A DNA stretch of 64,000 nucleotides from Thiomicrorhabdus aquaedulcis. GTDB taxonomy: Bacteria; Pseudomonadota; Gammaproteobacteria; Thiomicrospirales; Thiomicrospiraceae. Each line of letters starts with the position of its first letter. The stretch's first letter is position 1. The translations under genes and the position numbers were made by a program. The notes beneath the pieces are model-generated. The model saw only the letters and a list, made by a program, of their open reading frames with translations. It did no database searches and was not told the DNA's origin. Where the stretch lies: contig NZ_AP018722.1 of NCBI RefSeq assembly GCF_004001325.1, forward strand, positions 744,001 to 808,000, written 5' to 3'. Shown piece by piece: positions 11,843 through 50,926 of the stretch.

Positions 11843-14800
11843 TTGCTAAAAATACTTAACAAACCAGGTGTCGAATCCTTGAAAATTAAAAACCACAAAT
11901 CACTCATTTCTTACGAACACAATTTATTTAGCCCCGCGTTTTTAATGTCCCATTGGGCGAAAGATTACGATGCCTATTGCGCCAGCGGTGAAGATGATAC
12001 GCTGCGCGAAAAACTAAGCCATTGGGCGAATAAAGACTTTCAAAAAGAAACGGCTGCCGAAGGGCGCTTTGTACAATTATTTTTTGTTGAACTTTGGTGT
12101 TACATCGGCTCTGGTGAACAAAACCGAGAAGATGGATTTACCCTTTACCCACAATTTCCTATCAATCATGCTGGGCAGCGCGGTGGCAAAGGTTATGCCG
12201 ACTTAGCCCTCGGCTGGTTTGCCTTACAAGATCACCCCGAAACGCCGCAAGTGTTATGCGAATTTAAAGATATTCGTTCCGGCCTCGACGAAAAACAAAA
12301 TCGCAAAGACAACGATCGTTCGCCGGTGCAACAATGCGCTGACTATCTACACTTTGCCCGCCAGCAATATGCGCCTTACGGACACGAGAAAATTCAACCC
12401 ACCTGGGGCATTGTTACCGATATGAACGAATTCCGTTTATATTGGAAAGCCAAAATGCCGGGGCAATACCAGCGGTTTATTCTCAAACCCAAGACCATGA
12501 AAGAGCAATCGCTTAGCCTGCTGGCCGATAGCGAACAGGCTCGTCAACAACGGTTTTTATTCAAAACCCTGTTTCAAAGCGACATGCTCCTAAATCGCGG
12601 CAATGCATCTGCTTTGCTCAAACTGTTCAACTCTCAGCAAATTCAAGAAAAAGTGCTTGAAAAGACCTTTTATTTTGAATATCGCGACTATCGCGAAACC
12701 TTATTTAAAACCTTGTTAAAAGCCAACACTTTAAACTACCCACCGCAAAAACTGGTACGCCTCACCCAAAAACTGCTCGACCGCTTACTGTTTATTATGT
12801 TCTGCGAAGACATGGGCGCGCACCTCGAATATCCGGTAAATCTGCTGCGCGATTTAATGGTCGAAGGCTCGCAAGACACTCGCTATAACCCACTAGCCAA
12901 CGACTTTTACGAAGAAAAAGTATCACGCCTGTTTAAAACCATGCGACTGGGCGGCACCTTATGGAATCACCGCATCAACAAATTCAATGGCGGATTATTC
13001 GCCGCCGATGACGACTTAGAAAACTTGTTTATCCCCAACCACATCTTTTTTACCCCGATGCAGGGCGCAACCGAACAGGCGATGAAAACCGAAAAACACA
13101 CCTTGCTGTATTTTTCCGCCAACTACAATTTCGGCATCGAAGACGGCGGCGAACGCACCATCGGCCTTTACACCCTTGGGCGCATTTTCGAGCAATCCAT
13201 TACCGACCTCGAAATCATGGAAGCCGAAGCCGCCAACGAAGAATCGCTGATGAAACTCAGCAAACGCAAAACCGACGGCGTGTACTACACCCCCGAATGG
13301 GTCACTGAATATGTGGTCGAACAAACTCTTGGGCTACGCCTGCGCGAACTGCAAACCGAACTTGGCTTTGAGGCCTACAGCGACTTAACCGATTTAGAAA
13401 TCGACGCCGCCCACACCAAAAATGGTAAATTCGCCGCGCAAAAATCCCGCGCCAAAAGCTACTTTGAAGTACTTGAAGAATATGAAGTGCGTCTGAGCGA
13501 AATAAAAGTGCTTGACCCTGCCTGCGGCAGTGGCGCGTTTTTGATACAAGCGCTTAAACGCCTGCTAAAAGAACACGAAGCGATCAACAAAGAAAAAGCC
13601 CGCATCAGCTACGAATTTAAACAAGGTGGCCTGTTTGATGTTGGCCAAGTCTATCGCAATATTCTCTCTAAAAACCTTTACGGTGTGGACATCAACCCAG
13701 AATCGGTTGAAATCACCAAACTCGCACTTTGGTTGCATACCGTCATGCCCGGCCAGCCCCTATCCTCGCTGGATAACAATATCCTTTGCGGCAATAGCCT
13801 GGTCGATTGGGATATTCAAACCATCTTGCCCGACCTTAAGGAACACCAACTCGCCAAAATCAACCCGTTTAGCTACGCCGAAGCGTTTCAAGAGGTCTTC
13901 GCCAACGGCGGTTTTGACGTGATTATCGGCAATCCGCCCTACATCAAACTGCAAAACATGAAAAAGGTCGCGCCGGAAGCGACCGAATACTGGGTAAAGG
14001 CCACTAAAACCGAAAGCCTGACCGACGAAAACGGTCAAATAATTGAAAAGCAGGTGCCGAAATTTCGCAGTACCCAAACCGGCAATTACGATATTTATTT
14101 ACCGTTTTTTGAACAATCGGTGCAACTGATTAACCCAAAAGGGCGCATGGGGTTTATCGCGCCGAGTGTTTGGGCGGTAAACGAATACGGCGCAGGGCTA
14201 AGAGCCTTTTTACATCAAAGCCAACAAATGGATCGTTGGATTGACTTTAAAAGTTACCAAATTTTTGACGAAGCCATTACCTACACCGCGTTGCAGTTTT
14301 TTACTGGTCAAGCGAATGACGGCATCAAATTGCATTTTGCTCCGCAAGGCGCGGATGATTTAGCAGGCCTGCATTGGGACGACATTACGCCTTTACCTTA
14401 TCATCAACTCGACCCTAACCAGGCCTGGCAGTTTATGCCGGAAGTTGAACGGGTTTTAATCAATAAATTATTTGAAACTTGTCCATCTTTGAAAAGCATG
14501 ACTACATCAATTTCACAAGGTTTGATTACAAGTGCAAATAATATTTATCACCTCACCAAAGTCGCAGACGGACGTTATATTTCCTATACCGATAAACAAA
14601 ATCCATTGGAAATTGAAATCGAAGACGGCTTAATGAAACCGCTGATTTCCGGTATAGAGGCCAAGAGATATCAACAGCCGCTCACCGAAACCTATTTACT
14701 GTTTCCCTATGACCTCAGCGGTGATTCACCGAAATTATTTACTCAGCAACAAATGCAAACCCAATTCCCGCAAGGCTGGGTGTATTTGCAAGCGCATGAG

Positions 14801-15793
14801 GCATATTTACGCGGGCGCGAAAGTGGAAAATTTAGTAACGATGCTTGGTATCAGTTCGGGCGTAATCAAAATCTAGATAAGCAGGGAGATAAAAAGTTAT
14901 TTGTCGCTGGCACAGCACCAGAATTGAGACTCTCGTATGACTATGAGGCTAAATATACTGCGAATGATAAACGCGTTTATACAATTCATGCGGAAAAACA
15001 AAATGACTTAATCTACTTGCTGGGTATCTTAAATGCCCCTGTAGCCAGCTACATTTTCAAAAAAATTGCTAGGCCAAAAGCCGGTGGATTTTTTGATATT
15101 GAATCGCAATATCTTGCCCCTTTGCCCATTCCAAATGCCAACGACGAGCAAAAAGCCCATATTGGCGAACTGGCGCAAACTTTACAAAACTTGCATTCGG
15201 AATACCGCGATAAACTCGCGCAATTTGATAAACGCCTCGCTTCTACGCAAATGCTCGCCGAACCCAAAGACTTAGCCTGGCTTTGGGCGGATATTCAACC
15301 CATCAACGACCTTAAAAAATCCGACCAAGCCAAAGCCAGCGGCTTAAAAGGCAAAGAACTCACCGAATGGGCGAAACAACAGGCACAAAAAGTGTTGGAC
15401 AAAAACCTGCAGCCGCTAGCCAGCCAACTCAACGCCAAAACCAAGCTGGTCGTGCAATATCAAGACGGCGAAATGAGTTTATTAGCAAATGGCATCGAAG
15501 TCATTACCCAATATATCACCGATGAACAAGCCGCTTTGATGGTTCCGCAATGGCGACAAGTCATACGCACCACCAATATCACCCCCAGCGTCACCGCCGA
15601 CAAACTCGTTGGACACCTGCTCAACCTAAAAACCACCCATAACGCCAGCCTAATCCAACAACTCAACACGCTCGACACCGCGCTGGAAAACCTCCAAACC
15701 CAAATCCAAACCAAGGAAACCCAACTCAACCAACACACCTACCAACTCTACAACCTAACCCAAGACGAAATCGCGTTGATTGAGGGTGGGTGA
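11843..15793 (+). CDS. Type IIG restriction-methylation fusion (Eco57I-like)
   Basis: A single 1316-residue polypeptide that should cut and methylate DNA. The N-terminal third has a PD-(D/E)XK-like nuclease block: ADLALGWFAL then LCEFKDI near residue 140. The gamma-class N6-adenine methyltransferase follows, with motif I DPACGSGAFLI near residue 557 and catalytic motif IV NPPY near 696. The last third resembles a TaqI-type target recognition domain and ends in a coiled-coil-like segment. This layout is that of Eco57I-class enzymes. The frame opens at a TTG with no ribosome binding site; an internal ATG at 11945 is a possible alternative. It sits directly after tRNA-Arg and starts the defence island. 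It is long, intact, and has one palindrome near-copy (14418). Confidence 0.88.
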   Translation: MLKILNKPGVESLKIKNHKSLISYEHNLFSPAFLMSHWAKDYDAYCASGEDDTLREKLSHWANKDFQKETAAEGRFVQLFFVELWCYIGSGEQNREDGFTLYPQFPINHAGQRGGKGYADLALGWFALQDHPETPQVLCEFKDIRSGLDEKQNRKDNDRSPVQQCADYLHFARQQYAPYGHEKIQPTWGIVTDMNEFRLYWKAKMPGQYQRFILKPKTMKEQSLSLLADSEQARQQRFLFKTLFQSDMLLNRGNASALLKLFNSQQIQEKVLEKTFYFEYRDYRETLFKTLLKANTLNYPPQKLVRLTQKLLDRLLFIMFCEDMGAHLEYPVNLLRDLMVEGSQDTRYNPLANDFYEEKVSRLFKTMRLGGTLWNHRINKFNGGLFAADDDLENLFIPNHIFFTPMQGATEQAMKTEKHTLLYFSANYNFGIEDGGERTIGLYTLGRIFEQSITDLEIMEAEAANEESLMKLSKRKTDGVYYTPEWVTEYVVEQTLGLRLRELQTELGFEAYSDLTDLEIDAAHTKNGKFAAQKSRAKSYFEVLEEYEVRLSEIKVLDPACGSGAFLIQALKRLLKEHEAINKEKARISYEFKQGGLFDVGQVYRNILSKNLYGVDINPESVEITKLALWLHTVMPGQPLSSLDNNILCGNSLVDWDIQTILPDLKEHQLAKINPFSYAEAFQEVFANGGFDVIIGNPPYIKLQNMKKVAPEATEYWVKATKTESLTDENGQIIEKQVPKFRSTQTGNYDIYLPFFEQSVQLINPKGRMGFIAPSVWAVNEYGAGLRAFLHQSQQMDRWIDFKSYQIFDEAITYTALQFFTGQANDGIKLHFAPQGADDLAGLHWDDITPLPYHQLDPNQAWQFMPEVERVLINKLFETCPSLKSMTTSISQGLITSANNIYHLTKVADGRYISYTDKQNPLEIEIEDGLMKPLISGIEAKRYQQPLTETYLLFPYDLSGDSPKLFTQQQMQTQFPQGWVYLQAHEAYLRGRESGKFSNDAWYQFGRNQNLDKQGDKKLFVAGTAPELRLSYDYEAKYTANDKRVYTIHAEKQNDLIYLLGILNAPVASYIFKKIARPKAGGFFDIESQYLAPLPIPNANDEQKAHIGELAQTLQNLHSEYRDKLAQFDKRLASTQMLAEPKDLAWLWADIQPINDLKKSDQAKASGLKGKELTEWAKQQAQKVLDKNLQPLASQLNAKTKLVVQYQDGEMSLLANGIEVITQYITDEQAALMVPQWRQVIRTTNITPSVTADKLVGHLLNLKTTHNASLIQQLNTLDTALENLQTQIQTKETQLNQHTYQLYNLTQDEIALIEGG

Positions 15794-32823: not shown

Positions 32824-35612
32824 TTAACCCGTATTACGCATGCCTGCGGCAATGGCGTTTATGCTGTTAAGTAAGGGTGGAAGCCATACTTCGCGTTCTT
32901 CGGGGGTAGAATTTTGAGCTTTATAACGGCGCAATAATGCAATTTGGATGTTGTTTAACGGTACTAAATACGGGTTGCGACGCTTAAGCGAAAGGGCAAT
33001 GCCCGGGGTTTCGGCCATTAGATATTTGTTACCACTGATGCTTAAAATGTGTTTAACCGCACGGGCATGCTCAGATGCAATCATGTGATAAATCTTTTGA
33101 GCGTCCGATTGATCTTGCCCAAGCTTACTATACTCTTCGCCAATGGATAAATCGGTTTTAAACAGCGCCATTTGAATGTTGCTAAGTAAGGATCTAAAAA
33201 ATGGCCAGTTTTGGTACATGTCTTTTAACTGTTCTTCGCCGTGTTGAGCAATCCAATTGTCTAAAGCATAACCGGTACCTTGCCAAGCCGGAAAAGTCAT
33301 GCGGGCTTGTGCCCAGCCAAATACCCAAGGAATCGCTCTAATCGATGATTTGGATAAATTGCCGGTTTTACGGTGCGAAGGACGCGAACCAATGTTAAGT
33401 AAACCAATTTCGGTTACGGGCGTGGATTCGTAGAAAAATTTAAAAAATCCTTCAGTGTGATCGGTAAGCTCTCTAAAATTATGTTCGCCTTCCTTAGCAA
33501 GGTTTTGCATGATTTCTAGGTGTGCGGGATTGTCGGCATTGGTGCTCTTAACCAGGCCTGTACTGGCTTTCATTAAGCCCGTTACGCCAAGCGATATTTC
33601 ATACATAGCGGTTTCAGAGTTGCTGTATTTGTACGACAATACTTCGCCTTGCTCGGTAAACTTAATAGAGCCACGCACCGTGCCTGTGGGTTGCGACAAA
33701 ATAGCAAAATGGGTAGGGCCGCCGCCGCGACCCACTGTACCACCGCGACCGTGAAACAGGCGACAATCAACTAGATGCGCGTCGGCCAGTTTCATTATTT
33801 GTTGTTGGGCTTGGTACAAGCTCCAAGCCGATGATAAATTGCCGCCATCTTTAGCCGAGTCTGAATACCCAAGCATGATTTCTTGCTGATTGCCCGACGC
33901 TTGCAGTAACGCTTTGTAGGTGGAGTTTTCAAATAAAGCCGCAGTGACGGGCACAATTTTTTCAAGATCTTCAATGGTTTCAAACAGCGGTGCAATTTGA
34001 ATATCGCAATAAGGTTTGCCCGCGTTGTAACCGGCCAGGCCTGCTTGATGCGCTAAGAACAATACTTCCATCACATGACTGGCTTTGTGGGTCATGGATA
34101 TAACGTAATTGTTAAAGGCGTTTACGCTAATCTCTTTACGCATTTCACGAATGACATTGAAGACTTCTAATACTTCAATGGTCATCTCACTCAGGGTTAA
34201 ATGTTGAGTATCAATAATGGTGGCCGAGGCGACGTGGCTGGCTAATAGATTGAGTTTTTCTGATTCACTTAAACTGTTGTAATGAATGCCTAAATGCCCT
34301 AGTAGGTCGGCAACGGCATCGCTGTGCACATTGGATTCTTGACGAATGTCCAAGCGCATTAGGTAAAAACCAAAGGTTTTGACCAAGCGAATTAAATCTT
34401 GAATGTCGGCATTGGCCACATTGGCATCACCGTGACCAATTAACGAGTTTTGTATGAGCTCAAGATCTTCTAAAAAGCTTTGTTCTGAATCATAAGCAAA
34501 CGGACTTTTTAAGCAGCGTTCGTCGTTTAAACGGGCTTCAATGTATTTTAAATTTTGCTGAAGTTTGCCATGAATAAGGTATAACAAGCGGCGATAGGGC
34601 TCGTCTTTAAAGCGTTCTGGACGCTTTTTGAATACTTTTTCAATTAAGTCGGCGTCAACAATGGTGGCGCGATTAATCACTTCTTGTGAAATGCTACACA
34701 AATAGCGCGAATGAGTCAGTTTAGAACTTAAATCAAAAACGCGTTTTTGGTATTCGTAAATCACCGCGCGAGATTGGAGCAACAGTGCGTGCACTGTGGT
34801 GGTATGGGTTACAAATGGATTGCCATCACGGTCGCCACCAATCCACGAACCAAAGGTTAAAAATTGGGGGTGGTCAGTGCATCGTCTGGATAATGTTTAG
34901 CCAGAGCGCGTTCCATATAGCGATAGACTTGTGGCACGGCATCAAACAGCGATTTGCGGAAATAATAAATACCGTTACGAATTTCATCTTCTACGGTGGG
35001 TTTTTGACGGCGAATTTCGTCAGTTTGCCACAATACTTGAATTTGAGTTTCAAGTTGTTCGTATACCGAGTCTTTGGCGTAATCGTTATGGTAACTGTCT
35101 GCTTCGTTAAGAGTGCTTAAATCTAAGAAAATACGCCTTAGATTGTCCATGACAGATCGGCGTTTAGACTCGGTTGGGTGGGCTGTAAATACCGGAATGT
35201 AATGTAACTTGTTAATAAGGTTTTGAACCTGCTCTCCATTCATTCCTTGTTCTTTAAACTCACCAATCGTGTTTAAGACCGAACCTGCCCATAGAGGGCC
35301 ATCAGAGCGCAATTGACTTTGGCGCTCATGGTATTGATGTTCTTCTTCAGCCAGGTTTACTAGGCTAAAGTAGAGGTTAAAGGCGCGAATAATTTGCGTG
35401 AGTTCGTCGGCACTTTTAGATTCGATAAACTGAGTTAACGATTGGCGCAGAACCGCATCTTCTTCTTTTTGCAACGTAAGGTAGCCTGTACGCAACTGCT
35501 CGACTGCATCGTAAATATCTTTACCCACTTGCGATTCAATAACGTTGCCAAGTACACGACCTAATAACTTAACGCGGGCTCTTAATTGTTTATCGCGATT
35601 CTCTGCAACCAT
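32824..35612 (-). CDS. ppc: Phosphoenolpyruvate carboxylase (frameshifted as written)
   Basis: The anaplerotic enzyme that makes oxaloacetate from PEP and bicarbonate. The N-terminal half has the catalytic histidine in FTAHPTESKRR; the C-terminal half has HGRGGTVGRGGGP, and the protein ends AGMRNTG as usual. The two halves are in different frames. At 34859-34863 on the minus strand, adding one T gives FLTFGSWIGGDRDGNPFVTH, the expected conserved block, and restores a 929-residue enzyme (about 883 in E. coli). The start ATG at 35612 (MVAENRDKQL) follows GAG at suitable spacing. Probably an intact gene with a base-call deletion. Confidence 0.93.
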
Positions 35613-37660: not shown

Positions 37661-39125
37661 ATGAAGTTTATGGTTAAGCTGTTTCCAGAGATTATGATTA
37701 AAGGCCAGCCGGTTAAAAGAAGATGATTTTACGGCTCAGTGATAATCTACGTGTGCTGTTGCGGCGCATTGATGCCGATGTAGTGGTTACCCATTTTTGG
37801 GACAAAATAGAAGTACACACCGCCGAACCTTTTGTGACTAAAGTGCGTGAGGTTTTAAAACAGACGCCAGGTATTGAGCAGGTTTTAGAGGTGGTGCAAT
37901 ACGATACTGGCGTAGATTTTTTAACCATTGCTCAAAAAGTAGCGGTGCACGCTGTGCCCTTAATTGCAGGTAAAACCTTTGTTGTACGAGTTAAACGTAC
38001 CGGAAATCATCTTTTTAGCTCATGTGATTTGCAGCGTTTTGTGGGTGAGTACTTGTTAATGGTGGGCACGCCTAAAGCGGTTGATTTGCATTTGCCTGAG
38101 GTCAAAGTGCAATTTGAGTTGCATCAAGACGTTATTAATGTCATTACCGATCGTTACCCAGGTTTGGGTGGCTACCCTATGGGTGGGCAGGGTGATGTGC
38201 TGTCATTAATGTCGGGTGGTTTTGATTCAACCATTGCCAGTTACATGACCATGAAGCGTGGCATTAAAACTCATTTTGTGTTTTTTAATTTGGGGGGTGC
38301 GGCGCACGAGTTAGGTGTAAAACAAGTGGCGCTTTATTTGTGGGGTCAGTTTGGTGCGTCGCATCGGGTGTCGTTTGTAACCGTACCATTTGAAGACGTT
38401 GTGGCTGAAATTTTTCGTTCTACCCATGAAAGCTACATGGGTGTAATACTTAAGCGGCTTATGTTAAGTGCATCTGAGCAAATAGCCGATCAGATGGGTA
38501 TTGAGGCATTGGTCACCGGTGAAAGTGTTGCGCAGGTTAGCAGTCAAACACTAAGAAATTTGGCGGTTATTGATGCGGTGACCACAAAGCTGGTTCTTAG
38601 GCCTTTGGCGACCTTTAATAAAGTGGATATTATGGCCATGGCCGATGCCATTGGCACGCGTCAATTTGCTCAAAGCATGCCTGAATATTGTGGCGTTATT
38701 TCTAAAACCCAGTCATTAATGCCTCGTTTGAGCGCGTAGCGCGCGAGGTGCAGAAGTTTGATTTTAAGGTTTTGCAAGCGGCAATAGACGCCGCAGTGAG
38801 TGTGCCGGTGGATAAAATTATTGAGGACGTACAACGCTCGGAGTTTACTAAGGTGATTCATGCTATCGACGACACGATTGACAGTGAGCAAAATCCAGTA
38901 GTGGTCATTGATATTCGTCGACCCAATGAAGTTACTGCCGAGCCTTTAGCTTTACGCCATGTGTTAACGATTCCTTTTTACGAGCTTAAAACGGCCTTTA
39001 AAACCCTTAATCCCAGTGTGCGCTACGCTTTGTATTGCGACAAAGGCGTAATGAGTCAGTTGCACGCTCAGTATTTAATCGAGTTAGGTTTTGATAATGT
39101 TTTGGTTTACAGACCTTTGGTTTGA
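37661..39125 (+). CDS. thiI: tRNA 4-thiouridine synthetase ThiI (two frameshifts as written)
   Basis: ThiI thiolates U8 of tRNA and, through its rhodanese domain, supplies sulfur for thiamine. The gene starts MKFMVKLFPEIMIK with GAGAG before the ATG, breaks in the A run 37715-37718, continues through the THUMP domain and the PP-loop LMSGGFDSTIASY, breaks again at about 38735, and ends with a rhodanese domain with the active cysteine in YCDKGVMSQ. One added base at each break restores a 488-residue protein (482 in E. coli). The three pieces are strongly family-like, so base-call errors are the likely cause. The end overlaps the convergent mltF by 19 bases. Confidence 0.93.
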
Positions 39126-41146: not shown

Positions 41147-43464
41147 GTGAGCAATCAGAATACTCCGGATCTATTAGATCCACACGCAACCCGTGAAGCG
41201 GCAAAATACGACAATCCTATCCCCAGTCGCGAATTTATTTTAGACGCCTTAGAAACAGCTCAAAAGCCTTTGCGTCTGTTTGAACTTGCCGAAATCTTAG
41301 ATATTACCGAAGACGATGAAGAGCGCTATGAGGCCTTGTCGCGTCGTTTAAAAGCCATGAGTCGTGATGGACAACTTATTCGCAATCGCCGTGGTGCATT
41401 TGGCTTGTTGCAAAAAATGGATTTGGTTAAAGGACGCGTCTTAGGCCACCCAGATGGTTTTGGGTTTTTGGTGCCAGAAGAAGGCGGTAAAGATTTATTT
41501 TTATCTGAAAAAGAAATGCAAAAAGTTTTGCATGGCGACATTGTTATTGCTTCGATTGTGGGTGAAGATCGTCGTGGCCGTCAAGAAGGTACAATTGTTG
41601 AGGTTGTTGAATATTGCACCACTCAAGTGCTGGGTCGTTTAAATTTAGAAGATAACATGGCTTGGGTGCGTCCTAATAATAATCGCATAACCCAAGACGT
41701 TTTTATTCCTCAAGACGGCTTGATGGGAGCTAAAGAAGAGCAAATTGTATTGGTTGAAATTATTCATCAACCATCAAAGCGTTCCGGACCTGTCGGTAAA
41801 ATTGTTGACATCGTGGGCGATTATATGGCGCCGGGTATGGAAATCGATTCGGCTATTCACGCTTACGGGTTGCCTAATACCTGGTCGGATGAATTGCTTG
41901 CCGAACTAGCGCAAATTCCAGATGAAGTCACTGAAGCTGACCTAGAGGATCGTAAAGATTTACGGTCATTAAATTTAGTGACCATTGATGGTTCGGATAC
42001 AAAAGATTTTGACGATGCCGTGTTTGCTAAGCGTCGTAAAAATGGTTGGCGCTTAGTGGTGGCCATCGCTGACGTAGCCCATTATGTGAAGCCAGGCACC
42101 GAAATCGACAAAGAGGCTTATAAACGCGGCAATTCTGTGTACTTTCCTCAGCGCGTGGTTCCCATGTTGCCGGCTAAGTTATCCGATGGTTTGTGTTCGT
42201 TAAACCCACATGTTGACCGTCTGTGTATGGTGGCTGACTTGTCTATTAACGAAGACGGTAGCTTAGAGCGCAGTCAATATTATCGCGCTATTATGAATTC
42301 AAAAGCGCGCTTAACTTATGATCAGGTGAACAGCATTTTAACCGATGCAACAAGCGGCTATCGTGAGCAGTTTGCTGAGCAAGTTGAAGACGTTGAAGAG
42401 TTGTATGCATTGTATAAAGTGTTGCAAAAAGCACGTGAAGAGCGTGGCGCGCTTGAATTTGATACTACGGAAACCCGTATTATTTTTGATGACGCACGCA
42501 AGATTGAGGCTATCGTGCCAGTGGTGCGTAATGACGCGCATAAGTTAATTGAAGAATGCATGCTGATGGCAAACGTAGCCACCGCTCGTTATTTAAAGTG
42601 GCACAAAATGCCCATGGTGTATCGCGTACATGAGTCGCCCACTTTAGAGCGTTTAAAAACTTAAGAACCTTTTTGGCTGATTTTAGCCTAACCTTAGAAG
42701 GGGGCGATGAACCTACAGCGCACGATTATGCAGCGGTTATGGCCAAGATTCAGGGCGAAACCTATCAGCATTTAGTGCAAACAGTTTTGCTTAGAAGTAT
42801 GAATCAAGCCGTGTATCAGCCCGAAAATAAAGGTCATTTTGGTTTGAATTATGAGCATTATACGCATTTTACATCGCCCATAAGACGTTACCCTGACTTG
42901 CTAATTCATCGTGCCATTGCTCATGTTTGGACCAAAAAAGGTCCTGAGCTGTTTGATTACACCGAAACTCAAATGCAAGCTCTTGGTCAACATTGTTCAG
43001 ATACCGAGCGCCGTGCCGATGAAGCTACCCGTGATGCTGTTACGTTCTTAAAATGTGAGTTTTTATCGCATCGTTTAGGGCAAGAGTTTGAAGCCGTTGT
43101 AACGGCCGCAACCAACTTTGGATTGTTTGTTGAAATTGATCCACTTTACGTTGAAGGCTTAGTACATATTACCGAATTGGGTGAAGATTATTTTCATTAC
43201 GATAACGCTCGTCATTGTTTAAAAGGTGAACGCACTGGTAAAGTCTATCGCTTAGGCGATCGTGTAAGGGTTCAAGTGGCGCAAGTTAATTTGGATGACC
43301 GTAAGGTCGACCTAAGGTTTGTTGCAACGGAATCATCATTAACGCCATCAAACGAAACCGATGAACTTAATGATGAGTTAGCTGACGGTGACGAAGCGCC
43401 TAAGCGTGCAAAAAAGAAACGTTTTTATCGTAAAAAGAAAACTTCTTCAAAAGCTGGAGCGTAA
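41147..43464 (+). CDS. rnr: Ribonuclease R (frameshifted as written)
   Basis: A processive 3'-5' exonuclease that degrades structured RNA and works with tmRNA in quality control. An N-terminal winged-helix (DALETAQKPLRLFELAEIL), cold-shock domain, and the RNB catalytic domain with DGSDTKDFDDAVF and GNSVYFPQRVVPMLP are in the first frame. The second frame holds the rest of RNB, the S1 domain (NFGLFVEIDPLYVEGLVHI) and a Lys-rich tail. At 42659-42666 adding one base gives LKTLRTFLADF and a 772-residue enzyme. The GTG start is assumed from the family N-terminus. rlmB starts three bases after its stop, a conserved pairing. Confidence 0.94.
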
Positions 43465-44213: not shown

Positions 44214-44286
44214 GTTGAGTGGCGTAAAGACGCTAATTAAGACGTTAATTTAAGACATGTAAACAATGTGTTGTATTAAATGAAGC

Positions 44287-44318
44287 AAAAAAGCCGACCA
44301 GGCCTGGTCGGCTTTTTT
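44287..44318. terminator. Perfect terminator built around ACCAGGCCTGGT
   Basis: AAAAAAGCCG then the 12-mer then CGGCTTTTTT: a perfect 16-bp inverted repeat with T tracts on both strands. It can end rlmB (plus) and the kinase-Rieske gene (minus). The palindrome is the entire upper stem. Confidence 0.93.
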
Positions 44319-44347
44319 GTTTTTAGAGCGCCGATAGGCACAATCTA

Positions 44348-45546
44348 TTACGCTAAAAAAATATCTCCCTTGTCATCAATTTTAATATCAATGACCCGCA
44401 ACGATTCGTTCCAGCATGGCCCATCAATACACAAACCGTCTTCTATATTAAAAAAGCCTCATGCACTGAGCATTTAAGGGTTTTTTCAAATGGGTTTACG
44501 TCAATTTTAAACGCTTCATTAAGCGGCACGTTTTGATGTGGGCAGTTGTTCTCATAAGCTTTTACCGTATCGTCAAACTTAATAAGTACCACAGACGGAG
44601 CACCGTCTTTGGCTGGGGTAACTAGGGTTTTGGCGTTGCTCAATTGTTTAATATTTGCCAATGGCGTTGCATGATTGTCCAATAGTAAGTTGTCCAGGCC
44701 TGGTTGTCGGCATTTTTTGGCGGCTAACGAATTGGCGTGCGTGACCGCTTGGCTTAAAGACATTTCTTTTACTAAACCATCAATTAACCCTGCGTTAAAC
44801 GTATCCCCAGCACCTAAAGTATCCACAATCGGCATAACAGGCTCGGCGGGTAAGTGGTGTACCGAGTCGTTTGGAGTACTGTACCAAACGCCTTTTGCTC
44901 CCCATGTACACACTAAATTTGCGTGTTTGACTGTTTTTTTAATAGCATTTAGCAATGATTGGCCATCAATAAAGCCTTTGGCTTTAGCGTAATGGTGCGA
45001 AAAAATAATTAAATTAACCTGAGGAAATAACGCTTCAATGCCTTCACGAGGTTTTTCAACTTCTAATGAAATGGGTTGATGGCTTAAAAATGTTTTAGCG
45101 ATATTGAGCATGCCACTTAAGTTGTCAAGGTTACGACCTTCAAAATGCAGCCAGTCATATTCTTCAATCTCAATTTTGGCAAAATGCTCAAAGCTCAGCT
45201 CGGGTAAGTCGCGAAAATGCACAATGGTTCGATGGCCATTCTGGGCATTTAGGGTAATAAATGAGGTAGGTGTACGACCTTTAATAAAGGTTTGTATGTG
45301 CTGAGTATCAATTTTACGTGCGCGTAAGTTGCTTAACAACTGTTTAGCTTCGCCATCGGCCGCCAGCGTGGCGCATAGTGCAGTTTGATGGCCTAATTGA
45401 GTTAGTACATGCAAGCTGTTACTGGCATTACCACCGCTGGTGGTTTGTTTTTGTGTGGCGCGAATCTCTTCATCTTCGAGGGGATGGTGAGGAACGGTTA
45501 AGACAATGTCGAGTACCACGTTGCCGATGCCTAAAATTTTTGCCAT
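44348..45546 (-). CDS. Ketohexokinase-like PfkB kinase fused to a Rieske [2Fe-2S] domain (frameshifted as written)
   Basis: Residues 1 to about 290 are a PfkB-family sugar kinase closest in feel to ketohexokinase: GGNASNSLHVL, HFEGRN, SLEVEKPREG and the anion hole VDTLGAGDTFNAG. After a short linker comes a Rieske-type domain with CPHQN and, 24 residues later, CSVHEAF, i.e. both Cys-X-His and Cys-X2-His ligand pairs. As written the frame stops at 44443 just after CSVHEAF; adding one T at 44450-44455 continues FNIEDGLCIDGPCWNESLRV to a stop at 44348, 399 residues. AGGA precedes the ATG. I know of no characterised protein with this arrangement; its substrate and any redox role are unknown. Confidence 0.85.
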
Positions 45547-46353: not shown

Positions 46354-47112
46354 ATGAATGAAATAAAATCGGCTTTTAATGTTGGCTGTTTAAACTGTGG
46401 ATTGCAAAAAATCTGTTTTCCAACAGGCCTGCAGAAAAGTGAAATTGACCGTTTAGATGAGATTGTGGAGCGAAAAAGTCCTTTAAAAAAAGGCCAACAT
46501 CTTTTTTCAACAGGCGACGTATTTAGTTCTTTATTTGCCATTCGAGCAGGGGTTGTAAAAGTGTACTCTTACTCTGATGTGGGAGAGGAAGTTATACACG
46601 GATTTTATTTACCCGGCGATGTGATTGGCGTAGAGGCTGTTGCCACTAAAACGCATCATTTAAATGCCATTGCCTTAGACGCTACTAGTGTATGTGCACT
46701 GCCTTTTGATGAGTTGAGTGAGTTGTCATTGCAGATTCCACATTTAAATCAGCAAATGTTTACTATTATGAGTAAAGAGGTAAACGAAGGGCGTATTCAT
46801 GCCGAAATGTTAACCAAACGTAATGCGGATCAGCGTGTGGCGCAATTTATTTGGGATATGGCCGAGCGTTATCGTAATCGTGGTTATTTTCATAAAGAAT
46901 TTAGGTTAGGCATATTACACCGTGATGTGGCTGTGTATTTGGGCTTAACTCCAGAAACGGTGTCACGTATTTTAGCCAAGTTGCATCAAGATCAAATAGC
47001 CACGTGGAAAAAGAAAGAGGTGGTTATTCATAACGAATCCAAGTTACGGGCGTTAGCGGGTTTATTACACTGTGATTTAAATTATTACTCGCCAAAGCTA
47101 CTGGCTGTTTGA
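46354..47112 (+). CDS. fnr: FNR-type oxygen-sensing transcription regulator
   Basis: A 252-residue Crp/Fnr-family activator. The N-terminal cluster CLNCGLQKICFP and a fourth cysteine in ATSVCALPF match the four ligands of the oxygen-labile [4Fe-4S] cluster in E. coli FNR (Cys20, 23, 29 and 122). The C-terminal HTH reads RDVAVYLGLTPETVSRILAKL, with the Glu-Ser/Thr-Arg pattern that reads TTGAT half-sites. It should switch on genes for anaerobic or microaerobic life. AGGTG lies six bases before the ATG. Its own control region is the 807-base stretch upstream. Confidence 0.94.
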   Translation: MNEIKSAFNVGCLNCGLQKICFPTGLQKSEIDRLDEIVERKSPLKKGQHLFSTGDVFSSLFAIRAGVVKVYSYSDVGEEVIHGFYLPGDVIGVEAVATKTHHLNAIALDATSVCALPFDELSELSLQIPHLNQQMFTIMSKEVNEGRIHAEMLTKRNADQRVAQFIWDMAERYRNRGYFHKEFRLGILHRDVAVYLGLTPETVSRILAKLHQDQIATWKKKEVVIHNESKLRALAGLLHCDLNYYSPKLLAV

Positions 47113-48281: not shown

Positions 48282-50926
48282 ATGTCTGCCTCAGAGCCCG
48301 TTGTTCATTATTTAAAAGACTATCAAGCACCATACTTTAGTATAGAAGCGGTGCATTTGCAGTTTGAGTTGCACCCAACGGCTACGCGCGTTACTAATAC
48401 CATGCACATAAAAACGCTGACCATTCAGCCGCATTTAGTGCTGTTGGGCGAGCAGCTTAAGTTGGTGCAGGTCTTATTAAATGGGGTAGACATCACCCAG
48501 GCCTGCTTATGCGATGCTGAAAGTTTAAGCGTGCCTTTAAACGATTTTATGAACACTTTTGATTTAGTGATTGTGACCGAAATTGCTCCCCAAAAAAATA
48601 CTGCGCTCGAAGGGCTGTACCGCACCAGCGGTAACTATTGCACCCAGTGTGAGGCTGAAGGGTTTCGTAAAATATCTTATTACTTAGATCGTCCCGATGT
48701 ATTGAGTTGTTTTACCACTAAAATTATTGCCGACAAAACCGACAACAGAGTGTTGTTGTCTAATGGTAATTTGATTGAAAGCGGTGACTTACCCAATAAT
48801 CGTCACTACGCCGTATGGCATGATCCATTTAAAAAACCCTGTTACTTGTTTGCACTGGTAGCCGGTAATTTAGAGTGCATTGAAGACGTATTTTGCACTG
48901 CGGATGGCCGTGATGTCGTGTTACGGATTTACGTTGAAGCGCAAAATATTGATAAATGCGAACACGCCATGGCATCGTTAAAAAATCCATGCGCTGGGAC
49001 GAAACTCGCTTTGGCCTCATTTATGACTTGGATATTTACATGATTGTGGCCGTAGACGACTTTAATATGGGTGCGATGGAAAACAAAGGCTTAAACGTTT
49101 TTAATTCTAAGTTTGTTTTAGCCAAGCCCGACACGGCCACCGATGTAGATTATGAAGGCATTGAAGCGGTTATTGCCCACGAGTATTTTCATAATTGGAC
49201 GGGCAATCGTGTTACCTGTCGGGATTGGTTTCAGCTCACTTTAAAAGAAGGTTTAACGGTTTTTAGAGACCAAGAGTTTACCGCCGACATGCTCTCGCCT
49301 GAGGTAAAACGCATAGAAGATGTCAAGCGCTTGCGCAGTAATCAGTTTCCTGAAGACGCCGGCCCGATGGCGCATCCTATTCAGCCACAGTCGTATATTG
49401 AGATGAATAATTTTTATACGATGACAGTGTACGAAAAAGGTGCCGAAGTGGTGCGCATGTACCATACCTTATTGGGTGAAGAAGGTTTTAGACGTGGCAT
49501 GGATTTATATTTTAAACGCCACGATGGTCAAGCGGTGACAGTGGATGATTTTAGACGCGCCATGCAAGATGCCAACAATATAATCCTAGAGCAAATGCAC
49601 CACTGGTATGTTCAAGCCGGAACGCCGACTCTTAAGATTAATACCCATTTTGACGCCACGACCAATCTCTATCGCATTGAGGTGGCTCAGTCATTGGCTT
49701 CTGTGGAAAATAAGGCCGACTTTAAGCCGTTATTGATTCCATTAAAAATGGGGTTGTTAAACTCAGCAGGCCTGGTTATTGCACTAAAACCTGCGGCCAA
49801 TACTCTGCATAAGGTGATGGGCAACGCTCAAGAATGTGTGTTGCGTATCACTGAAGTTTGCGAATTTTTTGAATTTGAAGCCGTAGATGAACTACCCGTG
49901 CTTGCGTTGTTAAAAGGTTTTTCGGCGCCTGTACAGTTAGAGTATGCCTATTCTGATGCCGAATTAAGCCTTTTAAGCCGTGCAGACAGTGATGCGTTTG
50001 TGCGTTGGGAAGCCATGCAAACATTGTTTATAAATGAGCTTAAAGCCAATGTTAAAAGGTTTGAGTCTGGCGATGAGTTAGCCTTATCCGATGCCATGCA
50101 AAGTGCATTTAAAGGCGTTTTAGAAGATACCACGGCCGATGCAGGATGGGTGGCTTTGGCTATGACCTTGCCAGATTTAACGTACATAGGTGAGCAATAC
50201 CCTCAAGTGCCGGTCGAGGCCGTGTATGAAACGCACTTGTGGTTGAGAACCGCTCTAGCCAAAGCATTTTCGGATCGTTTATTGACGTTATATCAAACCC
50301 TTAACCAAGTTAATGCGCCATATCGTTATGATAAAAATGATATTGCTAAACGCAAATTAAAAAACAGTTGCTTACGTTATTTAATGCGTCTACCAGAGCA
50401 CCTTAATTTGGCAAAGGCGCAGTATTTCAACAGTCAAAATATGACCGATGTGCTGGCGGCCTTGGAAACGCTGTCGCACACCGAAAGCCATGATCGTGCA
50501 GAATGTTTGGCACATTTTTACGCAAAATGGCAACACGACGGTTTGGTGCTGGATAAATGGTTTACGTTACAAGCGGCTTCACATCATTTGCATGCTCTTG
50601 AGCAGGTTAAAGCCCTAATCGAACACCCCGATTTTATCTACACCAACCCTAATAGGGTGCGCAGTGTGATTGGCGTGTTTGGCCGTTTGAGTTGGTTAGG
50701 TTTTCATAGACAAGACGGTTTGGGCTATGAATTTTTAGCGCAACAAGTCTTAAAAATTGATGCCCTCAATCCACAAGTAGCGGCGCGCATGGTGGCTCCG
50801 TTTACACATTGGCAACGTTTTGATGACACTCGAAAAGCTCAAATGCGCGCGGCGCTTGAAAAGATTTTGGCGCACACTCCTCTTTCTAAAGATGTCTTTG
50901 AGATTGTTTCTAAATCGTTACATTAG
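48282..50926 (+). CDS. pepN: Aminopeptidase N (frameshifted as written)
   Basis: An M1-family zinc aminopeptidase. The first frame has the N-terminal domain up to MASLKN; the second starts in overlap and carries the exopeptidase motif NMGAMENKGLN and the zinc site HEYFHNWTGNR, then the C-terminal helical domain. At the A run 48980-48985 adding one A gives ASLKKSMRWDETRFGL, as in other PepN, and an 881-residue enzyme (870 in E. coli). It removes N-terminal residues during cytoplasmic protein turnover. It is followed eight bases later by the LpoA-like gene. Likely intact in the organism. Confidence 0.94.

Follow-up and report, generated by a model that had tools for sequence, protein, structure and literature searches.

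A gene for a kinase and a Rieske domain with a frame break near its end

On the minus strand of the window (the whole stretch of 64,000 nucleotides of Thiomicrorhabdus aquaedulcis DNA that was analysed), the sequence from 45546 down to 44348 codes for a PfkB kinase of the ketohexokinase type and then for a Rieske domain, in a single frame apart from the final ~35 codons. The features of this gene and of the region just beyond it are the following.

44689..45546, minus strand: PfkB kinase domain, ketohexokinase-type, residues 1-286 (PF00294; best solved relatives ketohexokinase, E 4.2e-50)
44665..44688, minus strand: short linker of low conservation within the family (mean pairwise column identity 0.30, 38 rows; residues 289-298 of relative L004)
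44348..44664, minus strand: predicted Rieske [2Fe-2S] domain, in two frames in the assembled sequence (PF00355 on the in-frame part, the rest in the second frame)
44536..44544, minus strand: first ligand pair C-P-H, by sequence reading (C and H in 46/46 fused and 49/49 separate Rieske rows)
44461..44472, minus strand: second ligand pair C-S-V-H, by sequence reading (C and H in 46/46 fused and 48/49 separate rows, the remaining row being truncated at the site)
44450..44455, minus strand: six-T run at the frame break, probable indel error (long open frame in 60/62 family genomes)
44414..44431, minus strand: extra conserved Cys pair C-I-D-G-P-C, in the second frame (both Cys in 94/95 rows of alignment A3 and 70/70 rows of alignment A4)
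44285..44330, no strand assigned: hairpin with flanking A/T runs between the kinase-Rieske gene and a convergent rlmB-like gene, a possible shared terminator (sequence reading)

The open reading frame at 44443-45546 (minus strand, 367 aa) contains GGNASNS, HFEGRN, VEKPRE, VDTLGAGDTFNAG, CPH and CSVH, that is, all of the motifs that an earlier note on this DNA had placed in one frame. The Pfam PfkB profile (PF00294) covers residues 1-286 (E 5.2e-39; 134.8 bits against a curated cut-off of 25.8) and the Pfam Rieske profile (PF00355) residues 295-363 (E 2.3e-6; 27.9 bits against 20.3), the frame holding the first two thirds of the Rieske domain. Past CSVHEAF the original frame reads LI and a stop, and the remainder of the domain is found in a second frame as FFNIEDGLCIDGPCWNESLRVIDIKIDDKGDIFLA followed by a stop, ending at 44348; this tail is identical to that of relative L004 at 28 of 35 residues. 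The break falls in the six-T run 44455-44450, where one extra T restores the frame, so that the earlier proposal of completing the Rieske domain with one T at 44450 is borne out.

Three other genes of the window (rnr, ppc and pepN, with names and frames assigned by eye) lose their frame at A/T runs (42640-42680, 34850-34870 and 48960-48990, near 42660, 34860 and 48980), and each is readable as one base short. Because these three genes break alike and the long open frame is present in 60 of the 62 family genomes, an indel error is the simplest reading of the break in the kinase-Rieske gene, which is probably a fault of sequencing or assembly; a genuine recent mutation would be the less simple alternative. 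The same breaks suggest that the window assembly carries uncorrected indels. A thiI-like gene (by eye) at window positions 37723-39125 is present as two open reading frames of 338 and 125 aa, perhaps through a further frame break.

Divergent from the kinase gene lies an FNR-like regulator (by eye; window 46354-47112), which has the same arrangement in L004, L005, L018 and L034. Control by this regulator through an FNR box was considered and rejected, the best site within 300 bp upstream in the window having 3 mismatches, with 97% of shuffles as good; FNR-box-like sites with at most 2 mismatches to the consensus occur in 21 of 46 relatives against 15.2 expected. Elsewhere in the window, a 1316-aa open reading frame (11843-15793) with an NPPY motif looks by eye like a combined restriction-modification enzyme.

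The two domains form one protein throughout the family

In all 62 genomes searched from the window's family, one of carbon-fixing sulfur bacteria (7 genera), the match covers the kinase together with the part of the Rieske domain that is in frame, with the other 61 genomes showing 45-72% identity to the window protein. An open frame of at least 396 codons is present in 60 of the 62, the two exceptions being the window's own genome (379 codons, with the stop in the Rieske part) and G034, which stops in the kinase. Matches over both domains in 62 of 62 family genomes exclude an assembly artefact as the source of the fusion, and we regard the product as a single two-domain protein with near certainty. 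The earlier note had advised looking for the same architecture in related genomes and had counted two observations as speaking against a fusion: a stop between the domains, which occurs in none of the 62 family genomes, and relatives in which the two are always separate genes, which does not hold inside the family, although outside it kinase and Rieske are often separate.

Across 38 fused rows near the window protein the mean pairwise column identity is 0.63 for the kinase, 0.65 for the Rieske domain and 0.30 for the linker; of all parts measured, the cluster-bearing half scores highest (0.82). Genera among the carriers are Thiomicrorhabdus, Hydrogenovibrio and Thiomicrospira and, more distantly, Halothiobacillus and Guyparkeria.

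The kinase part is closest to ketohexokinase

The best solved relatives of the kinase by sequence are animal ketohexokinases (E 4.2e-50), and the predicted structure of relative L004 (pLDDT 96.1, pTM 0.81) agrees, matching an animal ketohexokinase with Z 41.6, rmsd 1.4 over 288 residues and 35% identity; the sulfofructose kinase family is next (Z 34.6), and ribokinase also ranks behind ketohexokinase by both sequence and structure. In alignment A3, made up of 46 of the 51 distinct fused rows together with the adjacent pairs and a subset of 14 kinase-only rows, the equivalents of ketohexokinase (KHK) residues D15, G41, N42, R108, E139, R141, K174, G257 and D258 are kept in 99/99 rows and that of N45 in 98/99, while the D27 position is D in 85/99 and N in 14/99 and the C289 position is C in 77/99; we take these residues to make the sugar and ATP contacts of KHK or to act in its catalysis. 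The catalytic Asp of the GAGD motif is present in 99/99 rows. With the contact residues kept and ketohexokinase nearest by sequence and by predicted structure, the earlier description of a ketohexokinase-like PfkB kinase stands, and the kinase part is very probably a ketose kinase.

None of the three more specific profiles reaches its cut-off, namely the Pfam 'prokaryotic ketohexokinase' Khk (PF25270, 14.9 bits against 35), ribokinase (TIGR02152, 88.5 against an equivalog cut-off of 299.65 bits) and 1-phosphofructokinase (TIGR03828, 47.1 against an equivalog cut-off of 292 bits). The protein shares with the animal PfkB enzyme KHK its fold over 288 residues, as modelled for L004, and its sugar-contact and catalytic residues, but is bacterial, carries an extra C-terminal Rieske domain, is tied to RuBisCO genomes and has a ketose as its putative substrate. 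The sulfofructose kinase YihV is likewise a PfkB kinase for a ketose and represents the second-best fold family, but at 24% identity, and its matched entries are PfkB chains without a Rieske domain.

The kinase is linked to RuBisCO

Among 369 gammaproteobacterial genomes, with the kinase taken at E 1e-20 and the Rieske profile at E 1e-6, the kinase is present in 102 and the Rieske profile in 152. The kinase is found mainly in RuBisCO-carrying bacteria: a match to the RuBisCO large chain (PF00016, which does not separate RuBisCO-like proteins) is present in 94 of the 102 kinase genomes versus 82 of the 267 others. Taking one genome per family, which is the sole way in which kinship is handled in this statistic, RuBisCO is present in 40/43 with the kinase versus 35/114 without it (odds ratio 30, p 4e-13); this set of 157 genomes (G062-G218) rests on the run of family codes for the listed genomes. 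The co-occurrence, which the earlier note does not mention, is the strongest new clue to function. Five of the eight kinase genomes lacking RuBisCO have a phosphoribulokinase match, and two of the other three belong to one family (f3).

In 8 of the 80 kinase genomes searched, from 7 families, phosphoribulokinase and the kinase are no more than 10 kb apart, where a rough estimate gives about 0.6 expected; the count drew on 14 cases with both genes on one contig, more distant pairs being omitted, and 6 of the families are independent because the seventh, f44, prompted the comparison. The distances in these genomes (G244, G104, G150, G106, G115, G062, G121 and G197) are 2-8 kb. A kinase that replaces phosphoribulokinase was rejected, the latter being present in 76 of the 80 kinase genomes searched. 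On balance we consider it probable that the kinase serves Calvin-cycle metabolism. In two genomes in which kinase and Rieske lie apart (G184 and G080), the Rieske gene is 6-8 kb from phosphoribulokinase.

The Rieske profile has a weak tie to RuBisCO (odds ratio 2.7), and within RuBisCO-positive families it shows no association with the kinase, being present in 24/40 with the kinase versus 18/35 without it (p 0.49). The pathway link therefore belongs to the kinase, and adjacency and fusion are the whole of the evidence that couples the kinase to the Rieske domain.

The Rieske domain and its cysteines

No row that has residues at the site lacks either ligand pair (46 fused and 49 separate rows); these counts lean upwards because ligand-bearing sequences went into the profiles with which the rows were collected. 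A Rieske domain with both ligand pairs, as read in the earlier note, is thus what the window protein has, CPH and CSVH being present and their ligands invariant in the aligned rows, and an iron-sulfur cluster is predicted from them. The Rieske part of L004, modelled alone (pLDDT 93.1), has the Rieske fold, and its nearest solved relatives are the Rieske ferredoxins of ring-hydroxylating dioxygenases (2i7f, Z 14.5; 5bok, 14.3; 3gce, 14.3). It resembles these in fold (Z 12-14.5) and in its CxH...CxxH ligands, but differs from them in being fused or adjacent to a kinase, in carrying the conserved extra pair C-x2-G-P-C and in an identity of 13-21% to the top ten matches. The L004 domain scores below the equivalog cut-off of 150 bits for two dioxygenase Rieske ferredoxin families (NF042948, 26.2 bits; NF041683, 21 bits) and below that of the NirD nitrite reductase small subunit (TIGR02378, 19.1 against 74.65 bits).

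High-potential Rieske proteins of the bc1/b6f type have an additional disulfide Cys inside each ligand motif. Such cysteines are absent from the motifs of this family, which read CPHQxVP and CSVHxA. A different pair, C-x2-G-P-C (C81 and C86 of the first row of alignment A4), is kept whether the domain is fused or not, in 94/95 rows of A3, where the remaining row is truncated at the site, and in 70/70 rows of A4, a chosen set for which 9 Rieske proteins were taken from 40 loci of genomes without the kinase.

Kinase and Rieske outside the family

Among the matches listed for the 102 kinase genomes, the Rieske is fused or just downstream in 38, just upstream in 1, elsewhere in 20 and not listed in 43, these placements coming from 141 of the 152 positive genomes, those whose match is listed with its position; 39 of the 59 kinase genomes with a listed Rieske match thus have it fused or adjacent. 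By the full genome table, 42 of the 102 have no Rieske match at E 1e-6. The kinase can therefore do without an attached Rieske, given these 42 genomes and the 20 in which the Rieske lies away from it, and the Rieske must have other roles, since 92 of the 152 Rieske genomes have no kinase. The two are separate open reading frames in L043 (290 and 113 aa) and L054 (290 and 111 aa), and a fusion is also found in L053. In an even, phylum-wide sample of 398 genomes the two-domain profile, at E 1e-25, has matches in 4 genomes, one of which is the window's own.

No conserved operon is apparent in 54 loci with genes named by eye: no gene family besides the Rieske and the kinase, the latter in 45 loci, recurs in more than 9, and the sets of neighbours are local. 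In a locus of another family (L191, 877-2208) the gene before the Rieske gene encodes another kind of PfkB kinase (adenosine-kinase-like, 332 aa), and dksA- and gluQ-like genes come after the Rieske gene, as judged by eye. In L208, L213, L216, L222 and L228 profile-matching Rieske genes stand between HAD-phosphatase-like and sppA-like genes (by eye), and the Rieske therefore also keeps phosphatase company.

The kinase tree was built from 101 of the 132 distinct kinases after 31 sequences close to the window's family had been thinned out; the loci L091, L141 and L163, and also short or identical copies, had been removed before that step. On this tree the fused label requires 4 changes, at least 2 of them forced by starred branches, and the fused proteins fall into the window's family, Halothiobacillaceae and allies with G206, and G115, with the two large fused groups apart. 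On the Rieske tree, which has 108 columns and is poorly resolved, most of the two large groups come together on an unstarred branch with support 92. Two or three fusion events are likely from these trees, likely rather than proven because the short Rieske tree joins most of the first two fused groups, and one single fusion event would be the alternative compatible with that tree.

A possible redox-gated ketose kinase

In the open-access PMC literature, by titles and abstract openings, we found no description of a kinase-Rieske protein; both halves are of well-known kinds, and as far as that literature shows the joined protein is undescribed. We propose that an ATP-dependent ketose kinase of ketohexokinase type makes up its N-terminal part and that a short linker joins this to a Rieske [2Fe-2S] domain at the C-terminus. 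The kinase would phosphorylate a free ketose (pentulose or hexulose) at O1, a step that may provide salvage or balancing in organisms with large ketose-phosphate fluxes through the Calvin cycle, and the Rieske cluster may signal oxygen or the redox state to the kinase, thereby gating its activity, by analogy with the redox control of phosphoribulokinase. The gate is the weakest step of this reading. Counted against it are the 42 kinase genomes, out of 102, that lack a Rieske match, and we hold it to be a serious possibility but less likely than not; the reading as a whole, in which a ketose kinase works for Calvin-cycle metabolism and is redox-gated by its Rieske cluster, is tentative. The absence of a 1-phosphofructokinase match from all 60 family genomes also counts against the whole.

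Phosphoribulokinase is redox-regulated through thioredoxin and CP12, the control being exerted by disulfides. If the gate is real, the protein described here would likewise be a ketose O1-kinase under redox control in organisms with a Calvin cycle, but one from another kinase family and with an iron-sulfur cluster in place of disulfide control; redox control in carbon fixation would thus have an iron-sulfur-based counterpart. A more far-reaching version, in which the cluster is a redox switch that tunes carbon flow in Calvin-cycle organisms, the two genes being neighbours in many lineages and fused more than once, and the extra Cys pair may act as a second redox element near the cluster, is speculative and rather unlikely. 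The tie between kinase and RuBisCO points to a conserved, uncharacterised sugar-handling step in carbon-fixing Gammaproteobacteria, and the question is open to experiment because the carriers include the five genera given above, which have named isolates.

About as likely as the redox gate, and equally tentative as the full reading, is that the Rieske domain acts as an electron carrier for another, unseen oxidoreductase, with the tether keeping it by the kinase or its product and the cluster exerting no control over the kinase. The oxygenase Rieske ferredoxins that are its nearest solved relatives point this way, as do the varied neighbours of the Rieske in the 40 loci from genomes without the kinase, but inspection by eye of the neighbouring genes in the window and in 17 loci revealed neither an oxygenase nor a ferredoxin reductase, and the fused form would require a partner shared across the whole family.

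That the fusion brings co-expression only, or that the Rieske domain is structural (for a dimer or for stability), in either case without redox coupling, we judge unlikely. The poorly conserved linker would suit such an arrangement, as would the kinase genomes without a Rieske match (42/102) and the independent presence of kinase and Rieske within RuBisCO-positive families; against it, the ligands and the extra Cys pair are kept across very diverged sequences, where a purely structural domain has no need of them, and the fusion probably arose more than once.

Returning to the substrate of the putative ketose kinase, ketohexokinase phosphorylates fructose, and sucrose-phosphate synthase (TIGR02472) is matched in 26 of 60 family genomes, yet it is improbable that the enzyme is a fructokinase acting in sucrose turnover or belongs to fructose catabolism. 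There is no TIGR02472 match in the window's genome (G000) or in 34 of the 60 family genomes, and a role in a sucrose pathway was rejected on these counts; a 1-phosphofructokinase route was likewise rejected, with 0 of 60 family genomes positive at E 1e-40 and 7 of 14 control genomes positive. Fructose metabolism as such is doubtful on both grounds, and the ketose reading fits. In eight genomes (G013, G025, G026, G027, G031, G049, G050 and G056) the PfkB match situated 2.2-2.4 kb from the sucrose-phosphate synthase gene is a different and weak one.
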